From Bacteroidota bacterium (GTDB taxonomy: Bacteria > Bacteroidota > Bacteroidia > 2-12-FULL-35-15): a stretch of DNA of 64,000 nt. Shown here in pieces: positions 20,290-39,237 of this stretch. Position 1 is the stretch's first letter; each line of letters begins with the position of its first letter. The notes under the pieces were generated by a model. That model searched no databases, had not been told where the DNA came from, and saw only the letters and a list, made by a program, of their open reading frames with translations. The stretch is taken from NCBI GenBank assembly GCA_025963725.1, contig JAOQAE010000007.1, positions 62,001 to 126,000 on the forward strand, given 5' to 3'. The translations under genes were made by a program, and so were the position numbers.

Positions 20290-21864
20290 ATGAAGCTAAC
20301 GAGGCATATCATTTTCTCTTTCCTGCTCACTTTACTGTGCGGTAAAGGTTTTGCCCAGGGCAATACTCCCTGCGCCGCCACATTAATGACTGTAAACTCA
20401 GGCATTTGCGGAACGTATACAGCCGGCACCACTGTTGGCGCGACCTATCAGAACACTGCTGCTAACGGCGGCACACCAACCTGCCCGAGCAATGCCGGCC
20501 GCGGAAGCCCTGATGTATGGTACAAGTTTGTGGCCCCGGCAAGCGGACAGATCATTATTACTACAAATGCAGGTACGATCACCGACGGTGTAATGCAGAT
20601 CTTCAGCTCTTCCGACAATACCTGCTCGGGAACACTTACCAGTTTATCCTGCGATGATGACAGCGGCCCCGGAGCAATGCCCCAGTTCTCCTTTTGCGGC
20701 CTTACCCCCGGCAATACTTATTTCGTCCGGTTCTGGGAGTTTGGTAATGCTGCTGCAGATGTGGGAACCTTCTCCATTTGCTTTTACATTCCTGCCCCCG
20801 GCGCTGCCCTGCAGAACTGTAATGGCGGCACACAGGTTTGCAGCAATGCTTCCTTCGTGGGAAACAGCAGCGGAAGCGGAACACAGGAATTGAACGTATG
20901 TAACCAGGGATGCCTCTCCACGGAGCATAACTCCTCCTGGTATTATATAAATATCGGCAGTACCGGAACCCTGCAGCTTACGATCGCCCCAAGCGTCAGT
21001 TCGAATGATTATGATTTTGCGTTATGGGGGCCTACAAACGTCTGCCCTCCGCCAAGTGACCCTATCAGGTGCTCCTGGGCGGCATCCAGCGGCAATACTG
21101 GAATTAACAGCGCCAACAATGCGCCTGCAACGGATAATAGCGAGGGTGCAGGCGGCAACAGGTGGGTGCAGGACCTTCCAGTTACGGCAGGCGATGTATA
21201 TATTCTCCTCGTGGATGGATACACCGCAAGTGCAGCGTCTTATACGCTCAGCTGGAATTCCGGCGGCGGATCGTCAACGCTGAGCTGTGTTCCTGTTGTT
21301 CTTCCCGTTGAGCTGCTTAGCTTCGAGGCCAACCTTGATATTGACAAAGTACGTGTGAAATGGGCAACCGCCACCGAAACCAATAACGATTATTTTACAC
21401 TTGAAAAAAGCAGTGACGGCACTACATTCGAAGAAGTGCTGAAGGTGGACGGACAAGGCAGCAGTAGCAGCATGCACGAATACATGGATACGGATTATCA
21501 TCCGTATGAAGGTGTTTCCTATTACCGCCTGAAACAAACAGACTTTAACGGCGTGTTCGTTTATTCGGGCATCGTGCCTGTTGAATACCATGCAAACGGC
21601 GAGTTCGGATTCTCCATCTTCCCGAACCCGGGAGATGCAAAGGACATCAAGATCGAGCTGAATGCAACGAAAGGACAGGAGATCCTCGTGGTGGTGCGTG
21701 ACCTTACAGGACGTGAATTCTATTCAAAAGTAATGATCATGGAAACGGCAAACGGACAGATCGAAGCGATCGACAATAACCATAATATTGCTCCGGGAAT
21801 TTATCTTGTAACGGCTTCCAGCAAGAATGCCTTCTACAGCCAGCGGCTCATCATAAAGCCTTAA
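20290..21864 (+). CDS. Secreted cysteine-rich beta-domain protein with type A T9SS sorting domain
   Basis: 524 residues: signal peptide to about GFAQ (23), then two beta-sandwich modules resembling bacterial pre-peptidase C-terminal domains (about 25-165 and 175-320). The second contains the DYDFALWGP pattern shared with the partial protein at the right edge of the window. A fibronectin-like linker with LPVELLSFEANL follows, then the type A CTD (about 435-524) with IFPNPG and PGIYLVTASS. Many paired cysteines fit a surface location. Its CTD shares the YSKVM(V/I)ME block with the cargo at 15306. Likely binding or adhesion; no catalytic motif. Confidence 0.82.
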   Translation: MKLTRHIIFSFLLTLLCGKGFAQGNTPCAATLMTVNSGICGTYTAGTTVGATYQNTAANGGTPTCPSNAGRGSPDVWYKFVAPASGQIIITTNAGTITDGVMQIFSSSDNTCSGTLTSLSCDDDSGPGAMPQFSFCGLTPGNTYFVRFWEFGNAAADVGTFSICFYIPAPGAALQNCNGGTQVCSNASFVGNSSGSGTQELNVCNQGCLSTEHNSSWYYINIGSTGTLQLTIAPSVSSNDYDFALWGPTNVCPPPSDPIRCSWAASSGNTGINSANNAPATDNSEGAGGNRWVQDLPVTAGDVYILLVDGYTASAASYTLSWNSGGGSSTLSCVPVVLPVELLSFEANLDIDKVRVKWATATETNNDYFTLEKSSDGTTFEEVLKVDGQGSSSSMHEYMDTDYHPYEGVSYYRLKQTDFNGVFVYSGIVPVEYHANGEFGFSIFPNPGDAKDIKIELNATKGQEILVVVRDLTGREFYSKVMIMETANGQIEAIDNNHNIAPGIYLVTASSKNAFYSQRLIIKP

Positions 21865-21910: not shown

Positions 21911-22927
21911 TTATGCCTTTTCCAGCACCATGTCCTTTAATGCATTGATCCAGACGGGAGAGTCATTCAGGCTTTCCACGAGCTGCACTTTTTCGCCGCC
22001 ATGCTCATGAAAGATCTCCTGGTATTCGGTGCCGATCTCGTAAATGGTCTCGAGGCAATCGGCAACAAATGCCGGCGAGAACACAAGGATGTTCTTTTTG
22101 CCTTCCTTTGCTTTTTCAGCAACTACCTTATCGCTGTATGGCTTGATCCATTTGTCATTCAGCCTCGACTGAAATGTGGTCTCATATTTTCCTTCCGGGA
22201 TGTTCAGGCGCTTCACCAGCTGCCGTGTGGTTTCAAAGCAATTGGCGCGGTAACAATATTGATTTTTTTCGGTGATCACATCGCAGCAGCTTCCCAGCTT
22301 GCAGGAGTTGCCGCCGTAATGCGCAGCGCCTTTCATGATGTGCCTTTCGGGGAGCCCATGATAGCTGAACACCACATGATCGTAAGCGGCAATGTCGTAT
22401 TTCTTTGCGCGGTCGACACAGGCATCAATAAACCCGGGCTGATCGTAAAATTTGGAGATGACCTTTACGGAAGGCGTTACTTCCCATTTGCCCAGGATGC
22501 GCATCGCCTCTTCCACGGACGAACCTGTGCTCGAAGATGCATATTGCGGATATAAGGGGATCATGATGATGTTGCTCACCTGCGCGGCGCGGAGCTTATC
22601 CAATGCCGATCCGATAGACGGGCTCTGGTAGCGCATGCCGAGTTCCACGATGAATCCGTCGCCCAGCTCCTGCTGCAGCTTTTCCTTCACCTTGTTGCTG
22701 TTCACCAGCAGCGGCGATCCTTCCTTCGTCCAGATCTGTTGGTACAGCTTTGCGGATTTGGATGCGCGGAAAGGCACAATGATCCCGTTTACGAGGATAA
22801 AGCGGCCCACAGGGCTGATGTCGATCACACGCGGATCGTTAAGAAATTGTGTAAGGTATTTACGGACATCCGGCGTTGAGGGGCTGTCGGGCGTTCCGAG
22901 ATTTATTAAGAGTACTCCGGTCTTCAT
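21911..22927 (-). CDS. hemH: Ferrochelatase HemH
   Basis: 338 residues. The signature FSYHGLPERH has the catalytic His190, and the C-terminal ferrochelatase glutamate lies in SPAFVADCLETIYEIG. HemH inserts Fe2+ into protoporphyrin (or coproporphyrin) at the inner membrane. A notable insertion holds C209, C214, C215, C225 and C230, a spacing that could bind a [2Fe-2S] cluster as in some bacterial ferrochelatases with internal clusters. It lies 80 bases downstream of lpd on the same strand but ends at its own terminator. No other heme genes are adjacent. Confidence 0.92.
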   Translation of the reverse strand: MKTGVLLINLGTPDSPSTPDVRKYLTQFLNDPRVIDISPVGRFILVNGIIVPFRASKSAKLYQQIWTKEGSPLLVNSNKVKEKLQQELGDGFIVELGMRYQSPSIGSALDKLRAAQVSNIIMIPLYPQYASSSTGSSVEEAMRILGKWEVTPSVKVISKFYDQPGFIDACVDRAKKYDIAAYDHVVFSYHGLPERHIMKGAAHYGGNSCKLGSCCDVITEKNQYCYRANCFETTRQLVKRLNIPEGKYETTFQSRLNDKWIKPYSDKVVAEKAKEGKKNILVFSPAFVADCLETIYEIGTEYQEIFHEHGGEKVQLVESLNDSPVWINALKDMVLEKA

Positions 22928-23007: not shown

Positions 23008-24411
23008 TTATATATGCAATGCACGTTTTCCTGTTGCATCGAGGCAGGCTTCCTTGATGGCTTCCGTGAACGTAGGGTGCGCGTGGCTCATGCGGGAGAT
23101 GTCTTCCGCGCTTGCACGGTATTCCATCGCTACCACCGCTTCCGCGATCATATCCGCAGCACGCGGCCCGATCATGTGTACGCCGAGGATCTCATCGGTA
23201 GCCTCATCGGCAAGCACCTTTACGAAGCCGTCTGTATCCATGGATGCACGGGCTCTTCCGCTCGCCTTGAACGGGAAGCTTCCCGACTTGTACTTTTTTC
23301 CCTGTTCCTTCAATTGCTCTTCGGTATATCCTACCGCTGCAACTTCGGGCCATGTGTACACCACACCCGGGATAAGGTTATAATTGATGTGCGGCTTTTG
23401 TCCCGCCATTGTTTCTGCAACATACACTCCTTCTTCTTCCGCCTTGTGAGCGAGCATAGCGCCTTTCACCACATCGCCGATCGCGTAGATGCCGGCAACG
23501 TTTGTTTGAAGATGATCGTCTGTCTCCACTTTTCCGCGGTTGTCTACCTTCACGCCTGCTTTATCAAGCCCGAGGTTTTCCGTATATGGCTTTCTGCCAA
23601 CCGATACGAGGCAGTAGTCGCCTTTGATCTCCACTTTTTCACCTTTAGCATTCTCTGCGGTAACGGCTACTTCTTTTCCTTTTACGGATGTGCCTGTTAC
23701 CTTGTGATTGAAATAAAATTCGAAGCCGAGCTTCTTGAGGCTCTTCTGCAATTCCTTGCCAAGTGCGCCATCCATAGTGCTGATGATGCCGCCGGTGAAT
23801 TCCACCACTGAGATCTTTGCCCCGAGGCGTGCATACACCGATCCGAGCTCCAGCCCGATCACGCCGCCGCCAATGATGACCATGTGCTTCGGCACTTCGG
23901 TAAGCTCGAGCGCTTCTGTTGACGTGATCACTCTTTTTTTGTCGATCTCGATCCCCGGTAATGAGGAAGGCTTGGATCCCGTTGCGATAATAGTTTTCGC
24001 CGTTTCGATCTCGGTTGTTTTGCCATCCGCGGAAGCGATGGAAATTGTATTTTTATTTACGAAAGATCCATGTCCGGTGAATACGGTGATCTTGTTCTTT
24101 TTCATGAGGAAGGTGATCCCGTCGCAGGTTTGCTTTACCACATCGCCTTTTCGCTTGATCATCTGCTTGAGGTTCACTTTCACATCCTTTACATCGATGC
24201 CGTGCTCGGTGAAGGTATGTGTTGCATTGTGATAATGCTCGGAAGAATCGAGCAGCGCTTTCGAGGGGATGCAGCCTACATTGAGGCAGGTGCCGCCCAG
24301 CGTATTGTATTTTTCAATGATCGCGGTTTTCATTCCGAGCTGCGCGCAGCGGATGGCGGCAACGTATCCTCCGGGACCCGAACCTATAACGGTAACATCA
24401 AATTTTTCCAT
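23008..24411 (-). CDS. lpd: Dihydrolipoyl dehydrogenase (E3)
   Basis: 467 residues. N-terminal FAD motif GSGPGGYVAA, redox disulfide in GGTCLNVGCIPSK (Cys42, Cys47), NAD-binding GGGVIGLELGSV and the C-terminal catalytic HAHPTFTE complete the set. It reoxidises the lipoyl group of pyruvate, 2-oxoglutarate or branched-chain dehydrogenase complexes. No E1/E2 genes are nearby, so its complex cannot be named. It is separated from lnt by 141 bases holding a nested hairpin. Confidence 0.95.
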   Translation of the reverse strand: MEKFDVTVIGSGPGGYVAAIRCAQLGMKTAIIEKYNTLGGTCLNVGCIPSKALLDSSEHYHNATHTFTEHGIDVKDVKVNLKQMIKRKGDVVKQTCDGITFLMKKNKITVFTGHGSFVNKNTISIASADGKTTEIETAKTIIATGSKPSSLPGIEIDKKRVITSTEALELTEVPKHMVIIGGGVIGLELGSVYARLGAKISVVEFTGGIISTMDGALGKELQKSLKKLGFEFYFNHKVTGTSVKGKEVAVTAENAKGEKVEIKGDYCLVSVGRKPYTENLGLDKAGVKVDNRGKVETDDHLQTNVAGIYAIGDVVKGAMLAHKAEEEGVYVAETMAGQKPHINYNLIPGVVYTWPEVAAVGYTEEQLKEQGKKYKSGSFPFKASGRARASMDTDGFVKVLADEATDEILGVHMIGPRAADMIAEAVVAMEYRASAEDISRMSHAHPTFTEAIKEACLDATGKRALHI

Positions 24412-24479: not shown

Positions 24480-24553
24480 GGGAATGTTTATTATAGCGAG
24501 ATGCCGTGTCGGAGCACGGCATGACGATGAACATGGTAAAATTTTACATTCCC
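24480..24553. repeat. Nested inverted repeat between lnt and lpd
   Basis: Outer arms gggaatgt (24480-24487) and acattccc (24546-24553) enclose an inner perfect hairpin atgccgtg/cacggcat around tcggag. The right outer arm ends at the first base of the lnt stop codon. The inner part resembles the gtcattgcgag-type repeats elsewhere in the window. It may act as an mRNA 3' structure for lnt or be a small mobile element. Confidence 0.55.
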
Positions 24554-26181
24554 TATACCTTCCGGATCTTTCTGAACCGCAGCAGCAGCGCATACAGCAG
24601 CATGGCAATGGAAATGCAAAGCGCGGCGCGTGCAATGTAATCGCCGTAGCGTGTGTAAAAGGTAAGCCCGTTATGCAAGGCGATCCGCTGGCTGATAACG
24701 GCAGGCACCCAATAGCCGGTGGCCTGCTGGATTTCCCCGGCAGGACTGATGAAGCAGGAAATGCCTGTATTTGCGGAGCGAACGATCCACCGGCGTGTTT
24801 CGATGGCGCGCAGGCGGCCGTATTTCAGATGCTGCTTATAGCCCGGGGTATCGCCCCACCAGCCGTCGTTGGTGATGATGGCGATGAAGTTTGCGCCATT
24901 TCTTACATACTCGCTCACATATTCGCCGTACACGCTTTCGTAACAAACCACGGGTGCAGCAGCGGCGCCGTTATCATCCGGCGAAACAAACACGGTACGC
25001 TCTTCCTGTGTTCCCAAGCCGCCGGTGGTGCCGCCAAGGTCGATCGCAATGCTTTCGAGGTGCTTGAAAATAAAGGGGAAAGGCATCTGCTCCACTCCCG
25101 GCACCAGCTTCGATTTGTGATACACCTGGATGCGGCCGGAATGATCTACCTGCAAGGCTGTATTGTAGGAATCATAATACGCATCCTCATTTGTGAATTT
25201 GCGGGCGGTAACGGAAAGCTCTTCTCCGGGCGCATACAGCTTGTTGGTGGAAGCGCCGGTAATGATCTTCAGCTTCGGATATTTCTGCAGAAAAATTCTC
25301 AGCATCTGGATGCTTCCGCTCTGCTCCATTTCACTCTCCCACATTTCCTCGGTAAGGGCTGTTTCAGGGAACACAAGGTAGTCGGTGAACTCATTCACCT
25401 TCTGCGAAGCGAGCTCCAGCATTTTCTGCAGCTGCCCTTCAAAAGGCGCATCAAATTTTTCGTTGTAGGGATCGATGTTCGGCTGCACCAGCACCACGCT
25501 GATGCCGCCTTTTTCAAACTTCCCCGCCAGCGCCCCTGCACACAGGGAAAGCAGCATGGGAACGCCCAAGGCCGAAGCAACCACCAGCGCATTGCGAAGG
25601 TGCATGCGTGTTGTTTTTTCCCTGAAGTTTTTTATAGATTCATACACAAGCACATTTACAAACAGGATCCAGAGGCTGCCGCCAAACACGCCTGTGTATT
25701 CATACCATTGTATGATCCCCGGCGCATCCGCAAGTCCGTTGCCAAGCGTGAGCCATGACCAGCTCAGCTCCCAGTTGGAATGAATAAACTCAAAGGAAAG
25801 CCAGAAGCAGATGAACAGCACAGCGCCCCATTGCGCGCCGATGCGTTTCTTGGCGCGGTGGAACAGCAGGAATGGAAGGCACATCAGCAAAGCATTGCAA
25901 AAGATCGCCAGCGCGGCGCCACCGAAAGACGCATTTTTCACCCACCAGGTGGTTAAGATATTCCATGTGAAGAAACCGAGGTAGGCAAAAAGGAAAAGTA
26001 AGCGCGGACTTAATGCATCCCGGTTGCTGAAAAAATGATCTTCCACCATCAGCAGCGGAACAAATGCAATGAACAGGAAAGGAAAAAAGCCCTGCGGGAA
26101 CCAGCCCAGCGAGAACAGCAGGCCGCTGAGAAGCGAAAGTAAAAGAAGCTGGTATTTTTTCAATGTGATTTTTTTTGTCAA
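24553..26181 (-). CDS. lnt: Apolipoprotein N-acyltransferase Lnt
   Basis: 542 residues, usual length. The first 215 residues are membrane helices. The nitrilase-type domain carries the triad: Glu273 in FPETALTEE, Lys358 in YHKSKLVPG and Cys413 in VVCYESVYGE. Lnt transfers the third acyl chain to the N-terminal cysteine of lipoproteins such as GldB. It starts 10 bases after the DUF6973-like gene and is probably co-transcribed from porV. Bacteroidota Lnt proteins of this kind are standard. Confidence 0.93.
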   Translation of the reverse strand: MTKKITLKKYQLLLLSLLSGLLFSLGWFPQGFFPFLFIAFVPLLMVEDHFFSNRDALSPRLLFLFAYLGFFTWNILTTWWVKNASFGGAALAIFCNALLMCLPFLLFHRAKKRIGAQWGAVLFICFWLSFEFIHSNWELSWSWLTLGNGLADAPGIIQWYEYTGVFGGSLWILFVNVLVYESIKNFREKTTRMHLRNALVVASALGVPMLLSLCAGALAGKFEKGGISVVLVQPNIDPYNEKFDAPFEGQLQKMLELASQKVNEFTDYLVFPETALTEEMWESEMEQSGSIQMLRIFLQKYPKLKIITGASTNKLYAPGEELSVTARKFTNEDAYYDSYNTALQVDHSGRIQVYHKSKLVPGVEQMPFPFIFKHLESIAIDLGGTTGGLGTQEERTVFVSPDDNGAAAAPVVCYESVYGEYVSEYVRNGANFIAIITNDGWWGDTPGYKQHLKYGRLRAIETRRWIVRSANTGISCFISPAGEIQQATGYWVPAVISQRIALHNGLTFYTRYGDYIARAALCISIAMLLYALLLRFRKIRKV

Positions 26182-26191
26182 AGATAAAATT

Positions 26192-26815
26192 TTACTCCTT
26201 ACTAAATGTGATGAGGCATTTCGGGATGTTCCATTTACCCTGCCATTCGTTCATATCGATAGGAGAATCATCACAACGCACATAATTCCCCTTTGCATCT
26301 TTTTTGATCGTATACAAGTACCCCGCCTCTGCTTTTTTCAGAAGCATTATCTTAATATTACCCAGCGGCGACACGGGATTTATACGCACTGCGCTAAGTC
26401 CCGCTTCATTGTTCTTTTTATCCATCAGGCAGCTTACGGAATCGGGCAGGATGCTATCCTCGAGCTCACGTTTTTTATACTGCAGGTAATTTCCTTTTTC
26501 ATGTGCCATTCCCAGCTTTTTCGCCTGTTTCCTGCCAATGCCGCAGCTAAGGGAGGCCATCCAGTAAGCATGCTTGAATGCATCCAGCTTTCCGCCGGCA
26601 ATATCAGTTCCGATGATCCCTGAGCTTTTTACCGTATCAACCACGGCCAGCACCTCCGCAGTGATCCGCATCGCTTTTTTTGCCCTGAAGGGATGCGCAA
26701 GCACCCAGCATTTTTCGGGGCGGGAAAGCTTTCTGAATTTATGAAGCGCGGATTGGGCAACCGAAGGCGCCGAAGAAAGAATAAAAATGAATATGCACAG
26801 CCGGATCTTCATCAC
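26192..26815 (-). CDS. Exported DUF6973-like protein
   Basis: 207 residues with a signal peptide (about 20 residues ending SVAQS). The body contains the pattern DAFKHAYWMASLSCGIG (about 73-89) followed by AKKLGMAHEKG, reminiscent of DUF6973 domains of unknown function that have conserved His/Tyr/Glu. Start overlaps the end of the PorU2-like gene by 4 bases (ATGA), showing tight coupling, and lnt follows after 10 bases. The His-rich core could be catalytic, but nothing is established. The domain label is from memory of the motif and needs a profile search. Confidence 0.55.
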   Translation of the reverse strand: MMKIRLCIFIFILSSAPSVAQSALHKFRKLSRPEKCWVLAHPFRAKKAMRITAEVLAVVDTVKSSGIIGTDIAGGKLDAFKHAYWMASLSCGIGRKQAKKLGMAHEKGNYLQYKKRELEDSILPDSVSCLMDKKNNEAGLSAVRINPVSPLGNIKIMLLKKAEAGYLYTIKKDAKGNYVRCDDSPIDMNEWQGKWNIPKCLITFSKE

Positions 26816-29800
26816 CTCATCAGGTACATTTTGCCCCAGCCTTTTTTGAAATACTGGTCGGCTGCGGTTTCCCTTTTTTCAATATCGCTTCCATTGATGC
26901 GTGTGATCACATGGTACAGGTACACGCCGTTCGCAAGCCGGTCGCCGAACTCATCCTTTCCATCCCAAGCAAACTCGGTGATGTTCCTGCCGATGTGGAT
27001 CGGGCCGAGCTCATCCTGGTAAATCTCGCGCACCACCTTACCTGTGATGGTCATGATCTGAATCTTAAAGTTGGTAGGCTCTTCGGAGCCGGTAAGCGTA
27101 AACACAAAGCGTGTGGAAGTGGAAAAGGGGTTCGGGTAATTCATCACTTCCGTGATGGTGGAGCGGTTCACCACTTCAAAATTTATTTTGTAATCGATCG
27201 CCCCCGACTGGTTATCGGATTTATCCTTCGCCTGCACCAGCAGCTGGTAAGTACCGTCCTCAAAGAGCACCGGCGTATAATTGATCCTGCAGCTGTTGTT
27301 GGGCAGCACTGCCGGGATGAAGCTCATCGTGCTTCCGAAATAGATGCGCTGTGCAATTGCTGCGGAAGGCTTTTTGATGAACACTTTAAAATCGTTGGTA
27401 TCGTTGAGCGCGAGGAACCTGTTCTCGTCCTTCAGCTGGATCAGCACGTTGGGCTTTGCGGAAACAATATCGTTATTGAGAATGTGCATGCCGTCGAAGG
27501 TAACATCCAGCAAGGGATTGGTGTGGTCCACATTGGTGCGGAACGGGATGCGCACAATGTTATTGAAGTGGTACTGTTCCAGCTGTGAACGGCTTTGTCC
27601 GACAGGGTTCACCTCCACCCACAGCGCGCTGTTCCCTTCATAGCCTGTTGTGTTCACACGAATGGTATCGATGAGCAGCTCGGAAGGATTGAATGGTTTT
27701 TTCTTAAGCTTTGATGGCAGCGGATGATTCTGCCTGTCATGGTCTTCTACCCAATAGGTCACCAGCAGGCTGTCCTGCGTGAACGGGTATTCGCTGATGT
27801 TCTGGATCGGCAGCCTGATGATGATGTTATCGCCTTCCTGCAACGTATCGTTCGCGAAACTATAGCCTACGGCAGGATTGATAGCCGCTTCGGGCACAGG
27901 CGTGTAGATCACCTGCCAGCGCTCCAGCTGCGGGGGCGTATGCAGGCTGTCGTCCTTCATGTAGGCAACAAGACGAATTTTAGGGTACGCCGCAACATTC
28001 ACCAATGCACCGAGGGCAGCCACATCGTGCGTGGCGCTGTCGAAATTCGCAAGCACCGTCTCATTGCCGGCCGCATCTATCCCGATAACGCGTACGTTAA
28101 TGCTATCCTGTGTTGTGAGCCCTTCCACCGTATGAAAATCCCAGGAGAGGGAATCCCAGCTTGCCGCAGGGCCGATCACTGGAGAAGAAACAGATCCTTC
28201 ATTCCAGTTGGTGCTGAATGTTGTATTCAATACAGGAACTGAGCTGAAGGAAGTTCCCTGGATCTCGGTGGCAGTGCCGGGAACGGGTGTTGAATTTTTC
28301 ACACCCCAGATAATATACGGCAGCGAATCGGGCAGCGCGTTCATATCCGCAGCGCCTATTTTCTGAAAAGCATTGTTCAGCGTTGCATTGTAGGAGCCGA
28401 AACGCGGATGCCCTTCGCTGTAGCCCAGCACGAGAAATCCATCGGGCAGGTTATTCAGGAATGTCGCCATTGTATCCTGCCACATGGTATTGGTATCAAA
28501 GAACTCGATGGCATCCCAGGTAGCATTCGCGCAATGATAATCGTAGTACGTTCCGGAGAGCGTTCCCGTGATCTGCGAGCTTTGCAGGGGAATGCCGGTA
28601 ACAGGATTGATCGCTACGAAGGTAAATCCTGAGCCCGGATCGAGGCAGGTATACACGCTGCGGACATAGCCGTCGAACTTATACGTGATGTTCTCAATGG
28701 AGGTATACGGATAGATTCCCGTGGAGCAGAACAGGCTTACAAGGTCGTTCTGGAAATCGAACCTGCGCTGCGCCCTGTTGAGCTTTACAAACTGGAAGCC
28801 GTCGTTCTTGAACTGGAAGAGATGCGCCTGCTCCCAGCCTCTTTTGCCTGCAATGTACTGGAAAGAGCTTTCTCTCCAGTTGAAGCCGGTTGTATCCACC
28901 GAATCGGGGCTCACACGCCAATAATACACAGTACGGTTTGAAAGTGAAAGCGGTGGCCGCCAGCTGAGCACGCCGCCGCCGGATGTAATGACCGTATCGG
29001 CAAGCGGACTAATGAACGTATCGGTGGTGTCCACCTGGAACCTGTAATTCTTCACTGCCGCGAAGGGGTTGGCTGTAGAGGCTTTCAGCGTTACCACATT
29101 ACCGGGCACTATCGCAAACTCATAGGGATATACCGGCACAATATCGCCGCCGCTGATGAGCAGGTCGATCGCGGTGGTGCTGTTGTTACCTTCATTGAGC
29201 TCATCCACATTGCTGAACCAGTCGAGGCTTACAATGATCTTGTTGAGGCCTGTGCCATTCACAAAATCGAAAGGCACTTTAAATGAAATGGTGTCTTTAA
29301 ATTTCGGCGCTTTGATGTGCACAAGGTAGCGGAGGCTGTCGCCATTCGGCAGGATGCGGATCAGCTGGTCTACGATCGAATCGTTCACGGCCATCCCGAT
29401 ATTTTTTCTTACAGCATACACGGTGAATGAATCAAGGTCTGTGGTAAGGTCGAAATACACATCGCTGTTCGTAATGGTGTAATCCGGCTTACCGAACATG
29501 TGCAGCTTCAATGCAGGATCGCCCTGCAGGTTCATCTCGTAGCAGGTCTGGCGCAGCAGCGAATCCACCTGTGTAAGCGCTGTGGGCTCTATGGCTGCAA
29601 TGGTTCTCTGGATGGAGCTTCCCACGCTTTTATTGTAATTTGTCCTTGCGATCTGCGTATAAAATTCGGTGGAGAAATAATTCAGCGCAAAGGGAACGCC
29701 AAGCCCGACGGAGCCCAGATAACCGATCACGCCATTGTTGTTGAGGAAGGTGTAGGTTTCGCTGGAGCTCGGACTGTCGGAATGAAAATCGCCGGCATAG

Positions 29801-31830
29801 CAGGAGTTCGCAAGCAGGAAGGGGTAGCGCCCGGGAGCCGGACTGTAGGTGCTCCAATCGTCGATGCTCTGGTCGAAGCCGCTGCCGGAAGCATGCCCGA
29901 AAAAGGTCATTAAGGTAACGCCGTTATTGATAAGGTCGCGAAGCGTATCGGAGGAGTTGATCGTAATGGGCGCCGTTGTATTCTTGAAAAACTCTTTGAT
30001 CACCGTACCTCCGAAATTCACATCCTGGATAATGTTCTTATAATTATTCAGGAAGCTTTTGAAGGAGATCTGTTCGGCAAGCGTTGTTCCCCCGCCAAAA
30101 TGCAATACATACTTCATCCATTCTTCGGGCATTGTCAGCGCTTCATACTGCACCATCTTGTTCTTATACATGAACACACCGGCATCGTCCTTTGCGGAAA
30201 GGCGTCCGGTTGGAATGGCGGGTGCAAGGTTTGTCCCGTTCAGGCCTGCTGTGAGCAGGTTATCGCTGGAAGGATAGCCGAAGGATGGAACAAGGCATGC
30301 CGCATAATTTGCAGGATCCTGTCTGCAATAGTTCAGGTGAATGGATTTCCCGAGCAGGAACAGGTTATGCGGCGGCGTTGGAAATACATCGAGCAGGTAA
30401 TCCGCAAAGCCACGGATGGCAAGCGGACTTTTTACAATTCCAAATGCGAACTGGTCGTAGAGCTCATCCACATCGGCCAACAGCACGCTGTGCATTCCGC
30501 CGGAAGCCGAGCTGCGGTAATTCCCGTAATCTGCCGCAGAAACCATCAGCGCCTTATGGCTTACGATCACAAATGCAGAATCAAGCGCCAGCGCGCCATA
30601 ATTTGTAAACTGTGCCGAAGGTGTTACAGGCTGCAGGGAAGCAACGCTCATGATGTTTGCATCGGAAGTGATGTAACATTTTTTTTCTGCGCCGCTGTTC
30701 GGTACAAGCGCACGGTAATTCGCAGCCGATTGCACAACATCGATCCTCTTTCCATTGCTGAGATCGTACAGGTGCACTGTTCCGCCCGCGCTGAAATTGC
30801 TGAGGTCGAGATAAGATTTGGCAGAAAGGGAATTGTCGGGAAGAAAGATGCTGAAGCTGCTTTTTCCTTCGAGGTCGGCCGTATGCGGGTACTTCACATA
30901 AATATAAGAAACTGCGGTGCGGTTGGAGCTGAAGCCCGGATCGGCAATGCTTGAGAATTTAAAATCGGTGTAGGTGTTCCCGAGCGAATCCACCGGGAGC
31001 GACCGGATAAACATGCTGGCCGCATAGCCGTAGAAAGCAGTATCCTTCATGGTGCGGTAAGAGCCGGAGCTGCCTTTGTATTCTATCAGCAGGTGATGAT
31101 CGGGGTTTGGCAGCAGGTGCACATCCTTTGAAGCGCCTACAGCTACTGTGCGGATAACAGCGTTGGGCCCGCCCAGGTACCTGTTGGAAGTATTCACAAG
31201 GCCTGTGTACTGATTGTTACCTCCAAGGTCGATGGTATTGTAATCGAACCAGCCTTCAGCTTTTGTATAGCGCGCGTCGGTACCGCCAACATTATCGGTT
31301 TCGCCTGCATAATAATCCGTGTGAAAATCGTGGATCTCTTCCTTGAAAAAATAATTTACCGCCGGTCCGTATGCGCTGAATGCAGTATCGCTTTCGGGGA
31401 TCATGCGGCTGCCTGCAAGGGCATTGTTCCAGGTAAGGTAATAAACGGCGGTATCGTTTACGAGGCTGTAATACGGGTTGGGAATAAATGCGCTGTTTCT
31501 GTACAGCATGGCATCCAGTGTTCCATCATTTTTTTCTGCATAGAACTCGATGTAATCGCCGGCGTTGAGCACATTGTCGGCCTCGCCGCTGATGTAGATC
31601 TTCTGCTCCGTGCCCTTATTGAACAGCTGGAAATGATGTGGATCGATGGCGCTGAGATCGATCCCGGCTGCGGCAAGCGTGGCTGAGTCGATGCGGTAAA
31701 CGCCGTTCTGCGTGATCTTTATTTTGTAATACTGCTGGGTGTAGCTGATCCATTCATTCCCATAAGGCTGGGCCCTTACGCTAATAAACACAAATAATAA
31801 GATGCAAATCGCGAGTAGGCGTTTTATCAT
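26812..31830 (-). CDS. porU2: T9SS sortase-like protein, long PorU2-type (family C25 peptidase)
   Basis: 1672 residues: signal peptide (about 1-20, ending SVRAQ), a beta-rich N-terminal region (to about 415), the C25 cysteine peptidase domain (about 420-800) with His646 in MTFFGHASG and Cys677 in LLANSCYAGDF, then long beta-sandwich regions including CARDB-like VDELNEGNNS (about 880), and a C-terminal FlgD-like domain (about 1580-1672) with NYPNPFSTSTRFVF and DGKDEFGDRLANGVY. PorU cleaves cargo CTDs and joins them to A-LPS. Canonical PorU is about 1100-1300 residues; this fits the longer PorU2 class. It starts 20 bases after porV. Confidence 0.8.
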   Translation of the reverse strand: MIKRLLAICILLFVFISVRAQPYGNEWISYTQQYYKIKITQNGVYRIDSATLAAAGIDLSAIDPHHFQLFNKGTEQKIYISGEADNVLNAGDYIEFYAEKNDGTLDAMLYRNSAFIPNPYYSLVNDTAVYYLTWNNALAGSRMIPESDTAFSAYGPAVNYFFKEEIHDFHTDYYAGETDNVGGTDARYTKAEGWFDYNTIDLGGNNQYTGLVNTSNRYLGGPNAVIRTVAVGASKDVHLLPNPDHHLLIEYKGSSGSYRTMKDTAFYGYAASMFIRSLPVDSLGNTYTDFKFSSIADPGFSSNRTAVSYIYVKYPHTADLEGKSSFSIFLPDNSLSAKSYLDLSNFSAGGTVHLYDLSNGKRIDVVQSAANYRALVPNSGAEKKCYITSDANIMSVASLQPVTPSAQFTNYGALALDSAFVIVSHKALMVSAADYGNYRSSASGGMHSVLLADVDELYDQFAFGIVKSPLAIRGFADYLLDVFPTPPHNLFLLGKSIHLNYCRQDPANYAACLVPSFGYPSSDNLLTAGLNGTNLAPAIPTGRLSAKDDAGVFMYKNKMVQYEALTMPEEWMKYVLHFGGGTTLAEQISFKSFLNNYKNIIQDVNFGGTVIKEFFKNTTAPITINSSDTLRDLINNGVTLMTFFGHASGSGFDQSIDDWSTYSPAPGRYPFLLANSCYAGDFHSDSPSSSETYTFLNNNGVIGYLGSVGLGVPFALNYFSTEFYTQIARTNYNKSVGSSIQRTIAAIEPTALTQVDSLLRQTCYEMNLQGDPALKLHMFGKPDYTITNSDVYFDLTTDLDSFTVYAVRKNIGMAVNDSIVDQLIRILPNGDSLRYLVHIKAPKFKDTISFKVPFDFVNGTGLNKIIVSLDWFSNVDELNEGNNSTTAIDLLISGGDIVPVYPYEFAIVPGNVVTLKASTANPFAAVKNYRFQVDTTDTFISPLADTVITSGGGVLSWRPPLSLSNRTVYYWRVSPDSVDTTGFNWRESSFQYIAGKRGWEQAHLFQFKNDGFQFVKLNRAQRRFDFQNDLVSLFCSTGIYPYTSIENITYKFDGYVRSVYTCLDPGSGFTFVAINPVTGIPLQSSQITGTLSGTYYDYHCANATWDAIEFFDTNTMWQDTMATFLNNLPDGFLVLGYSEGHPRFGSYNATLNNAFQKIGAADMNALPDSLPYIIWGVKNSTPVPGTATEIQGTSFSSVPVLNTTFSTNWNEGSVSSPVIGPAASWDSLSWDFHTVEGLTTQDSINVRVIGIDAAGNETVLANFDSATHDVAALGALVNVAAYPKIRLVAYMKDDSLHTPPQLERWQVIYTPVPEAAINPAVGYSFANDTLQEGDNIIIRLPIQNISEYPFTQDSLLVTYWVEDHDRQNHPLPSKLKKKPFNPSELLIDTIRVNTTGYEGNSALWVEVNPVGQSRSQLEQYHFNNIVRIPFRTNVDHTNPLLDVTFDGMHILNNDIVSAKPNVLIQLKDENRFLALNDTNDFKVFIKKPSAAIAQRIYFGSTMSFIPAVLPNNSCRINYTPVLFEDGTYQLLVQAKDKSDNQSGAIDYKINFEVVNRSTITEVMNYPNPFSTSTRFVFTLTGSEEPTNFKIQIMTITGKVVREIYQDELGPIHIGRNITEFAWDGKDEFGDRLANGVYLYHVITRINGSDIEKRETAADQYFKKGWGKMYLMR

Positions 31831-31850
31831 TTATGAATGTTGGATTCCCA

Positions 31851-32936
31851 TTATGATTTTGGCTTTTTCCTGTTGATGTCGATCTTCAGTGAAAAAACAT
31901 TTGAGTAAAGTGCAACCGACTGATCGCCAATGTCTGTTAAAGCATAGTCGATGTACACTGATTTTATGCGGATCCCCACGCCGATGTTCGGCTGGAATGT
32001 CCTTATTTTTTTGCCGTCGGGATCGGTATAGCTTTGTATATTCCCGAAGCCTCCGCGCAGGAAGATCATGTTCATGTAACCTGCTTCCAGCCCGATATGC
32101 GGGTCCATGCTGATGGCTTTGCTTTTGATCAGCACATTCCGTTTTCCATCAAAGGTGTTATCGAGGTCAAACTCTGCAAGCAGGCTAATCTTCTTAGTAA
32201 TATCAAACTGGCGTGCCACCCCGAGGATGAGCTTCGGAAGGGTGATCTCCACTCCGTTCTCCGGGATCTCATTCCCTGTTTGCAGGAACACGGCCTTTGT
32301 TTCATCGGAAAGGTTATAGCTCCAGGCGTTGAAGGTAGAAGTTACATCGCGCGCCATTGCCGCGAATTTCCATTTTTTATAATCGTATTGTGCGCCTGCA
32401 TCCAGACCAAAGCCCCAGGCGCCGGCGAAATCGCCCACTTTCCTGCGGATGATCTTTACGTTTCCGCCTACATGCAGGCCGGGAAATTTCAGGTCCTTCG
32501 CGTAGGAAACGAGGAAACCCCAGTCTACAGCGGAAAATGTTGTGATACGGTCGTAATCCACATTTCCGTTCGCATCAATAAGCTCGGTGGTATTCGGGAT
32601 ATCATCCACACCAAAGCGGATGAGGCTGACGCCAAGCACGCTGGAGCTATCGAGCCGCGTGGCAAAGGCGCCGTAATCGTATTTTGCAATGCCGGCGAAG
32701 TATTCGCTGTGCATCAATGCCACCTGGTGCTGGTTGCCGATTCCGTGAAGTCCGGCCGGGTTCCAGTAGCCTGCGGTTACGTCGTTCACGGAAGTGATGT
32801 ATGCATTGGACATCCCCAAAGCCCTTGCCCCTACTCCAATATTCAGAAATTCGTTACTGTATTTGGGCGCCTGCGCAAAAGCAGAGATACCCAGGCCGAA
32901 AACGGCCAGTGAAGCAGTGATAAAGTTCTTATTCAT
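31851..32936 (-). CDS. porV: T9SS outer-membrane protein PorV
   Basis: 361 residues with a signal peptide (to about GISAFAQ, 22) and the FadL-like start NIGVGARALGMSNAYIT, followed by NPAGL, features of the PorV/PorQ family. PorV shuttles cargo from the translocon to the PorU sortase at the outer membrane. It is directly upstream of the PorU2-like gene, as in T9SS organisms where porU and porV are paired, and is the first gene of the run with a well-formed promoter. PorQ is the alternative but is less likely given the neighbour. Confidence 0.86.
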   Translation of the reverse strand: MNKNFITASLAVFGLGISAFAQAPKYSNEFLNIGVGARALGMSNAYITSVNDVTAGYWNPAGLHGIGNQHQVALMHSEYFAGIAKYDYGAFATRLDSSSVLGVSLIRFGVDDIPNTTELIDANGNVDYDRITTFSAVDWGFLVSYAKDLKFPGLHVGGNVKIIRRKVGDFAGAWGFGLDAGAQYDYKKWKFAAMARDVTSTFNAWSYNLSDETKAVFLQTGNEIPENGVEITLPKLILGVARQFDITKKISLLAEFDLDNTFDGKRNVLIKSKAISMDPHIGLEAGYMNMIFLRGGFGNIQSYTDPDGKKIRTFQPNIGVGIRIKSVYIDYALTDIGDQSVALYSNVFSLKIDINRKKPKS

Positions 32937-38380: not shown

Positions 38381-38463
38381 GGGATAAAGATAGAAAAAGA
38401 TCGCTCCGCTCCGGCAGATCACATTGTATGGTGGATTCCGCAAAAAATGGTAATTTCGCAGCA

Positions 38464-39237
38464 ATGAACATCAAAAAGCACATTCCGAATGCGATCACCT
38501 GCGGCAACCTTCTTTGCGGCTGCCTTGCCATTGTTTCAGCGCTTAACGGCGACCTCGTATGGAGCGCCTTTCTTGTTGGCTTAGCGGCGATCCTCGATTT
38601 TTTCGACGGCTTTGTGGCCCGCCTGCTGAAGGTTGGCGGCGAGCTTGGCAAGCAGCTCGATTCACTTGCCGATATGGTAACATTCGGCGTAGTGCCCGGA
38701 ATGATCATGTTCCAGATGCTTTCGCCGGAAGCCACATTTACATTCAATGATTCAACGCTGATGATCGAAAGGCCTGAATACCTTCAATACCTTGGCTTCC
38801 TGATCACCACATTTTCGGCCATGAGGCTTGCGAAATTCAACATTGATACACGCCAGAGCAATTCCTTTATCGGGGTGCCCACTCCTGCCAACTCTATCCT
38901 CATTTGCTCCCTTCCGCTGATCCAGCATTTCCAGCCGGTGGTACTGGGCGTAAACACCTTTATGGCCATTAATAACACCTGGTTCCTGGTGATCCTTACG
39001 CTGCTCATGAGCTACCTGCTGGTGGCAGAGCTTCCTCTATTTGCCTTAAAATTCAAGAACTTCGGCTGGGCCGATAATAAGATCCGTTATTCCTTTTTAA
39101 TAATTTCCGTGATTTTGTTAATACTATTTCAGTTCATTGCAATCCCTTTTATTATATTTTTGTACATCTCTTTTTCAGTTGTAAACAATGCCACAGCGGG
39201 AAAAGACAAGGAAGCAACAGCTATAAACAACCATTAA
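38464..39237 (+). CDS. pssA: CDP-diacylglycerol--serine O-phosphatidyltransferase PssA
   Basis: The start at 38464 (MNIKKHIPNAITCGNLLCGC) gives 257 residues, normal for Bacteroidota PssA; upstream codons are not family-like. The CDP-alcohol phosphotransferase motif D-G-x2-A-R-x8-G-x3-D-x3-D is visible at FDGFVARLLKVGGELGKQLD and the Asp that follows. Seven or so membrane helices. It makes phosphatidylserine, the precursor of phosphatidylethanolamine, at the inner membrane. purS follows after 12 bases. No psd gene is adjacent. Confidence 0.93.
   Translation: MNIKKHIPNAITCGNLLCGCLAIVSALNGDLVWSAFLVGLAAILDFFDGFVARLLKVGGELGKQLDSLADMVTFGVVPGMIMFQMLSPEATFTFNDSTLMIERPEYLQYLGFLITTFSAMRLAKFNIDTRQSNSFIGVPTPANSILICSLPLIQHFQPVVLGVNTFMAINNTWFLVILTLLMSYLLVAELPLFALKFKNFGWADNKIRYSFLIISVILLILFQFIAIPFIIFLYISFSVVNNATAGKDKEATAINNH

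Follow-up and report, generated by a model that had tools for sequence, protein, structure and literature searches.

Genes of the porV2–porU2 locus

We analyzed a 64,000-nucleotide stretch of DNA (the window) from a Bacteroidota bacterium (GenBank assembly GCA_025963725.1, contig JAOQAE010000007.1, positions 62,001 to 126,000), whose genome amounts to 4.79 Mb in a 7-contig assembly. Four genes lie on the minus strand between positions 24553 and 32936, i.e., where an initial annotation made from the letters had placed them: porV2, porU2, a DUF6973 gene and lnt (Table 1). PorV2 is an outer-membrane barrel and PorU2 a putative sortase of the type IX secretion system (T9SS), and we report here that the window most likely carries with them a second, paralogous T9SS-type surface module, porV2–porU2. 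The initial annotation had called the first gene porV; the PorV/PorQ family is right, but the gene is PorV2 (NF052325) and not canonical PorV, against whose profile (NF033710) it scores 33.3 bits, under the cut-off of 250.

The genes are tightly packed. Only 20 bases separate porV2 from porU2, and the 4-base overlap between porU2 and the DUF6973 gene noted earlier holds if the latter starts at GTG 26815, but shrinks to 1 base if it starts at ATG 26812. lnt begins about 30 bases or less after the DUF6973 gene, its probable start being TTG 26163 rather than 26181, as several relatives start there. On the other side, pssA, which in many relatives is located next to porV2 in divergent orientation, lies about 5.5 kb from porV2 in the window. 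Among the remaining genes, the plus-strand gene at 20290-21864 encodes a 524-amino acid exported protein whose end, on visual inspection, resembles a type A sorting domain, a likely T9SS substrate.

Table 1 Features of the porV2–porU2 locus and its surroundings in the window
Feature	Position	Strand	Assignment and evidence
porV2	31851..32936	-	PorV/PorQ-family outer-membrane barrel; NF052325 (PorVQ2) 525.6 bits, cut-off 325
porU2	26812..31830	-	C25 cysteine peptidase/putative T9SS sortase, 1672 amino acids; NF052324 737.5 bits, cut-off 450
C25 domain of PorU2	residues 420-776		PF01364 161.3 bits
FlgD-like/T9SS type A sorting domain of PorU2	26815..27138	-	residues 1565-1672, final GWGKMYLMR
DUF6973 gene	26192..26815	-	PF22322 51.7 bits, cut-off 27; apparent signal peptide (by eye) and Wnt/Lipocone-like helical domain
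lnt	24553..26163	-	apolipoprotein N-acyltransferase; TIGR00546 243.4 bits, cut-off 132.9
-7 promoter-like box TATCTTTG	26186-26179	-	Bacteroidota consensus match before lnt
pssA	38428..39237	+	CDP-diacylglycerol-serine O-phosphatidyltransferase; TIGR00473 107.6 bits, cut-off 107
Recurrent downstream neighbour	23008..24411	-	tblastn in genus and named loci; presumably dihydrolipoyl dehydrogenase-like (judged from the sequence)
Recurrent downstream neighbour	21911..22927	-	tblastn in genus and named loci; presumably a hemH-like ferrochelatase (judged from the sequence)

Briefly, the genus set consists of 26 genomes of at least 90% completeness from the order of the window genome, all of one genus, members of which are also present under names as unclassified Bacteroidetes metagenome-assembled genomes (L053-L055). 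The named loci comprise the 80 best among at least 526 confirmed relatives, and an even draw, not chosen by PorU2, provided 148 Bacteroidota genomes. Cultured porU2 carriers are represented by L085 (Crocinitomix algicola), L107 (Taishania pollutisoli) and L128 (Terrimonas ginsenosidimutans). PorU2 loci were collected 121 times, and three whose PorU2 is identical to another were removed, leaving 118 distinct loci; 113 of these form the full-length PorU2 set, the other five, which have no PorU2 frame of 1400 amino acids, being left out.

PorU2 and PorV2 stand beside a canonical T9SS

The initial annotation had raised the question of a second, canonical porU in the genome, and there is one: a gene for 1300 amino acids (L051:2368-6270, contig C6 of the window genome G000) that scores 1353 bits against the PorU profile NF033707 and is followed by canonical porV. 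Profile searches of the same genome also found PorZ (628 bits), SprA (2655 bits) and 150 matches to the type A sorting domain, for which 150 of 335 candidates were scored. Since these canonical parts are present, we take porV2–porU2 as a second module and not as a replacement. A further PorV-family barrel (G000:C4:38730-39704, 144 bits) was seen after a gene with an FlgD-like end, judged by eye, which is possibly another barrel/cargo pair.

PorU2 itself reaches 177.6 bits against NF033707, under the cut-off of 420. The C25 His646/Cys677 pair is numbered correctly in the initial annotation, and it is invariant in all 12 aligned PorU2 sequences and in 113/113 full-length PorU2 proteins. The great length ascribed to PorU2, however, is ordinary for its kind (1525-1910 amino acids, median 1686, in the 113 proteins), nor is its FlgD-like end an addition, the same kind of domain being found at the end of this genome's canonical PorU (TIGR04183, 24.3 bits at residues 1207-1289). 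The PorU2 end matches TIGR04183 with 23.0 bits at residues 1565-1647, a bare pass exactly at the cut-off of 23, and stays under the cut-off of 27 both for FlgD_ig (22.9 bits) and for Pfam Por_Secre_tail (12 bits). The GWGKMYLMR-type end motif recurs among PorU2 relatives. Some loci carry PorU2 in altered form: two PorU2 genes, one of them without the GKMYLMR end, occur about 6 kb apart in L037 (G091:C5) and about 28 kb apart in L039 and L041 (G126:C76), and in L036 (G115:C3) PorU2 is split into four open pieces by stops or frame shifts while PorV2 is open.

In a tree of 42 C25 rows, 25 PorU2-type and 16 PorU-type rows are separated by a branch with a support of 100/97; rows were assigned by the better match of two domains, four of the 25 PorU2-type rows (L046-L049) score under the NF052324 cut-off, the outgroup is a single, very long row (L166), and a partial PorU-type row (L159) and the unmatched C25 loci L164, L165, L168 and L169 were left out. 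The C25 phylogeny that the initial annotation had looked to for a placement of the protein sets PorU2 apart from canonical PorU. With its PorV-family barrel partner and its borderline T9SS sorting domain, PorU2 has a putative T9SS function. A model of the C-terminal half of PorU2 (residues 881-1672; predicted local distance difference test, pLDDT, 83.9) returned nothing specific in Foldseek, i.e., immunoglobulin (Ig)-array proteins at low template-modelling scores, together with a match to latent PorU (6za2, E-value 3.5e-10).

By score and gene order, the window pair are full members of PorU2 (NF052324) and PorV2 (NF052325), both of which are already named in NCBIfam, although with putative names only. 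A search for publications under those names, for PorV2 together with "type IX secretion", found none. PorU2 shares with canonical PorU the C25 His/Cys dyad, the PorU-like N-terminal region, a sorting domain of its own and an adjacent PorV-family barrel gene. In contrast to the canonical pair, PorU2 and PorV2 score far under the equivalog cut-offs of canonical PorU and PorV, PorU2 stands apart on the C25 tree and has a longer, Ig-rich C-terminal half, and PorV2 occurs without PorU2.

PorV2 is retained without PorU2

PorV2 is found more often than PorU2 and persists where PorU2 has been lost. Within the even draw, PorV2 is over the cut-off in 28/148 genomes and PorU2 in 15/148, with both in 12, PorV2 only in 16 and PorU2 only in three. 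Within the genus set, PorU2 is over the cut-off in 22 of the 26 genomes. The other four (L133-L136) keep PorV2 beside pssA, three of them with lnt directly after porV2, and the PorV2 tree places all four within the genus, which makes loss of PorU2 the simplest reading.

The neighbours that PorV2 keeps are of interest here. Among the 16 PorV2-only genomes of the draw (L170-L185), a divergent pssA is located within about 1.1 kb of porV2 in 12, and an Lnb-family gene follows porV2 directly on the same strand in ten (L171-L173, L177-L180, L182, L183 and L185). All ten proteins of this slot exceed the Pfam gathering score for Lnb_N, and the three that were scored against the NCBIfam equivalog gave 196-250 bits, under its strict cut-off of 550. 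The spacing between the open frames of porV2 and Lnb is -3 to 33 bases in eight of the ten loci and 230 and 350 bases in two. lnt follows porV2 directly in L184 and sits just past pssA in L176, and in L170, L174, L175 and L181 neither Lnt nor Lnb was found in the 10-13 kb stretch read. Judged by their Pfam and NCBIfam family names, the two enzymes share one function and have unrelated folds. lnt is over the cut-off in 124/148 genomes, yet in only one of the ten genomes with Lnb in the slot.

The exchange of one enzyme for the other is seen in one pair of loci. L182 and L184 group as sisters in the PorV2 phylogeny (Shimodaira–Hasegawa-like approximate likelihood ratio test 99, short search) and share the flanking gene order, except for one extra gene past pssA in L182 that has no counterpart in L184; porV2 is followed by Lnb in the former and by Lnt in the latter, and the two enzymes show no similarity (best E-value 0.69). 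Given pssA and a lipoprotein N-acyltransferase beside PorV2 where PorU2 is missing, PorV2 is probably tied to lipid/lipoprotein assembly. The window lnt is an ordinary Lnt; ten relatives have an Lnb-family gene in the slot after porV2. To our knowledge, no link of Lnt or Lnb to a PorV-family barrel has been published, nor has the exchange of a lipoprotein N-acyltransferase in the neighbourhood of PorV2 (no paper search was made on Lnt or Lnb).

Other genes recur around porV2 as well. In L057, L058, L069 and others, two genes just upstream of porV2 are perhaps another acyl-transfer pair: one is weakly similar to DltB (127 bits in one member, under the cut-off of 375), the other very weakly to DltD (16 bits). 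An ATP-binding cassette ATPase gene, which we take from its sequence to be LptB-like, recurs near pssA on the side away from porV2 in L171-L173, L177, L180, L182, L184 and L185.

Transcription units

In 94 of the 118 distinct loci, porU2 is preceded on its own strand by porV2, within 200 bases in 92, with a median spacing of 3 bases; several of the 24 remaining loci have little sequence upstream. For promoters, positions -90 to +6 of mapped starts were searched for the Bacteroidota -7 box, for which two sources give the consensus TAnnTTTG (PMC7366714, PMC2483708); random stretches contain it at 5.2%. In the window, TATCTTTG sits 23 bases upstream of the mapped lnt start. Across loci, the box is found before lnt in 14/28, ten times at -21 to -24, and nine of these ten come from the window's genus, so that they are not independent. 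It is found before porV2 in 19/97, pssA in 16/59, porU2 in 5/113 and the DUF6973 gene in 3/13. Please note that TANNTTTG occurs over the whole window at chance level (41 found, 41.0 expected), so that it is informative only through its position before lnt; a scan for sigma-70-type promoters likewise gave no more than chance (9 found, 11.8 expected).

These data bear on the claim of the initial annotation that the genes from porV2 through lnt are co-transcribed, i.e., that one transcript joins the sortase genes and lipoprotein acylation. The short spacings in the window would fit such a transcript, as would the scan of -90 to +6, in which no TANNTTTG box precedes porU2 or the window's DUF6973 gene, and the lack of a box before Lnb in 6/10 Lnb loci, where Lnb may accordingly share the porV2 transcript. 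The box before half of the lnt genes, however, speaks against it, and so does an opposite-strand gene that stands between porU2 and the DUF6973 gene in 6/13 genus loci with that gene: in three (L011, L013 and L015) the DUF6973 gene so parted from porU2 has a box of its own, and in three further loci it has none. We consider one transcript through lnt very unlikely and gave it up as the best reading, outweighed as it is by the box before lnt. Instead, porV2–porU2(–DUF6973) looks like one operon, and lnt may be started separately from a promoter of its own. An internal promoter, which the initial annotation had named as grounds against its own claim, is what the sequence before lnt points to, on the basis of a consensus match in loci many of which are close kin. 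What stands of the proposed coupling is the T9SS-type pair and a link with lipoprotein acylation that recurs outside the window; the shared transcript through lnt finds no support.

DUF6973 resembles Wnt/Lipocone proteins

DUF6973 is found in 14 of the 26 genus genomes, and all 14 have PorU2 (14/22, versus 0/4 of the genomes without PorU2). It is within about 2 kb of PorU2 in 13 of the 14 and on another contig of a roughly 540-contig assembly in the last one; no match to the DUF6973 profile was found among the non-genus loci compared. A profile built from 13 DUF6973 relatives matches the type VI secretion system (T6SS) effector BteO of Bacteroides fragilis (9uu0) with an E-value of 1.1e-7. The structural model of DUF6973 (pLDDT 82.7) gives VIA Z values of 14.6 for BteO, 11.4 and 10.7 for Wnt, and 5.2-6.3 for serum amyloid A (SAA), where values under about 13 can reflect the common arrangement of helical bundles, and Foldseek places BteO at an E-value of 9.1e-3, with no match at 0.001. 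As intermediate Z values are often obtained with helical proteins, the Lipocone reading leans on BteO, for which the sequence agrees. Both Wnt and SAA are placed in the Lipocone superfamily by PMC12419801, which predicts an action on lipid head groups for this superfamily.

The residues H81, E105, D131, N134, N135 and G138 are invariant in 13/13 DUF6973 relatives; H81, E105 and D131 are located in successive helices and NNxxG in a fourth, as matched by eye. DUF6973 has in common with the SAA-Wnt clade of Lipocone proteins the Wnt-type five-helix core, in which the His/Glu/Asp positions may correspond (by eye). It differs from that clade in the Arg of the sNxxGR motif, which is absent in 13/13 relatives (NNEAGL in the window, NNQIGR in BteO), and the main text of PMC12419801 makes no mention of DUF6973. 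Searches under the names DUF6973, and BteO with Bacteroides, found no publication. From the modeled structure, DUF6973 resembles the Wnt/Lipocone lipid-head-group proteins.

It may be asked whether DUF6973 belongs to the PorU2 module at all. Its nearest solved relative is BteO by both profile and VIA Z, and its patchy presence, in about half of the genus genomes and with no profile match in the non-genus loci compared, would suit a stray toxin-type domain like that T6SS effector. Such a stray would not be expected to keep company with PorU2 in every genome that has it, nearly always within about 2 kb on the same contig, nor to be a single domain with an apparent signal peptide. A toxin-type origin with no role in the module seems to us somewhat unlikely, and we keep DUF6973 as a possible genus-level periplasmic accessory of the lipid-head-group (Lipocone) type.

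A probable second sortase module with a possibly lipid-linked barrel

Our preferred explanation, with a probability of roughly 0.55, is a second T9SS-type sortase module in which PorV2 has a further lipid or lipoprotein role, PorU2 is optional and lnt is separately promoted. PorU2 would be made with a signal peptide, exit via the SprA translocon by means of its own C-terminal sorting domain and, once at the cell surface, dock on the barrel formed by PorV2. There, the Cys677/His646 dyad may cleave the sorting domains of some of the cargo proteins and pass these on to a surface acceptor in a sortase-like manner; canonical PorU transfers cargo to an amine of anionic lipopolysaccharide (A-LPS), as described in PMC10202324. 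PorV2 may act in outer-membrane lipid or lipoprotein assembly, or be co-maintained with it. PorU2 would then be an optional component located between porV2 and lnt, the latter being probably transcribed from its own promoter.

The dyad is silent on the acceptor, and PorU2 could also be a simple C25 protease: it would cut off the sorting domain with water as the acceptor, and the cargo would be released, not anchored. T9SS effectors processed by PorU may be released as well, according to PMC10202324. The kinship of PorU2 to the PorU sortase and its pairing with a PorV-family barrel are against this, and we regard a plain protease as unlikely, though with a real chance. We have also considered that, in part of the Bacteroidota, PorV2 serves lipoprotein N-acylation as its partner in the outer membrane, taking triacylated lipoproteins or the lysophospholipid of Lnt/Lnb, that PorU2 attaches cargo to the amine of a phospholipid (e.g., phosphatidylethanolamine) and not to A-LPS, and that DUF6973 tunes the head group. 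This is the most speculative of our readings and highly improbable. We also weighed whether pssA points to a phospholipid as the acceptor of PorU2 and rated this low, because pssA adjoins PorV2 also in genomes that have no PorU2; a lipid-amine acceptor, which would suit the neighbourhood, is kept low for the same reason.

Several observations weigh against a second sortase module with a lipid-linked barrel. The PorU2 sorting domain barely reaches its cut-off. G049, G079 and G146 carry PorU2 with no PorV2 over the cut-off, and G045 and G064 have the two on separate contigs, while G084 has Lnb in the slot plus an lnt on another contig. Among 116 PorV2 loci, the stretch downstream of porV2 has Lnt 28 times and Lnb ten times; 62 loci have neither and 16 are undecided, with L176 scored as having none although its lnt sits just past pssA, and with a shorter limit for "none" applied to L170-L187; pssA is present in 66 of these loci, absent in 26 and undecided in 24. 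Around the 113 full-length PorU2 genes, pssA is present in 46 loci, absent in 46 and undecided in 21, and lnt is present in 25, absent in 64 and undecided in 24; in this tally the lnt and pssA states of the window were set by hand, as an antisense open reading frame had displaced lnt in the frame choice and pssA lies beyond the 6 kb limit, and several genus loci count as lacking pssA only because the stretch ended before it. Of the 12 draw genomes with both PorV2 and PorU2, only that of the window showed pssA/lnt near porV2 in the stretches read. A tyrS-like gene (one member scanned) stands beside porV2 in L035, L036, L037, L040, L044, L128 and L130, and pssA seems to be a single-copy housekeeping gene, with one strong match per genome in the 26 genus genomes, over the cut-off in ten. 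As other lineages have no pssA, Lnt or Lnb neighbours, the porV2–acylation link is confined to part of the tree.

The conservation of these neighbours can be inherited gene order, and in the plainest form of that view there is no functional link at all, the Lnb/Lnt swap being an accident of local recombination. The loci with pssA or with Lnt/Lnb do cluster on the PorV2 tree (116 rows), with 13 changes at the fewest for the acyltransferase and 11 for pssA; many other porV2 loci have neither, the downstream neighbours that recur include housekeeping genes, a promoter-like box of its own precedes lnt, and a single clean swap was seen. Inherited order alone, however, predicts neither that one enzyme is replaced, gene for gene and between intact flanks, by an unrelated one of like activity, nor that porV2 and Lnb lie so close together. 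We consider it a serious but somewhat doubtful account, and prefer a functional link of PorV2 with lipoprotein acylation, which we read from gene order.

A loose parallel is offered by the archaeosortase ArtA, which PMC7157517 describes with PssA/PssD; there, too, a sorting enzyme is encoded near a phosphatidylserine-synthase gene. The enzyme and the route differ, and the parallel remains loose since pssA adjoins porV2 even without PorU2. If the link between porV2 and acylation is functional, it would join T9SS-type barrels and lipoprotein maturation, two fields that have been kept apart, and the role of the uncharacterised PorV2 barrel family would be open to single gene deletions.

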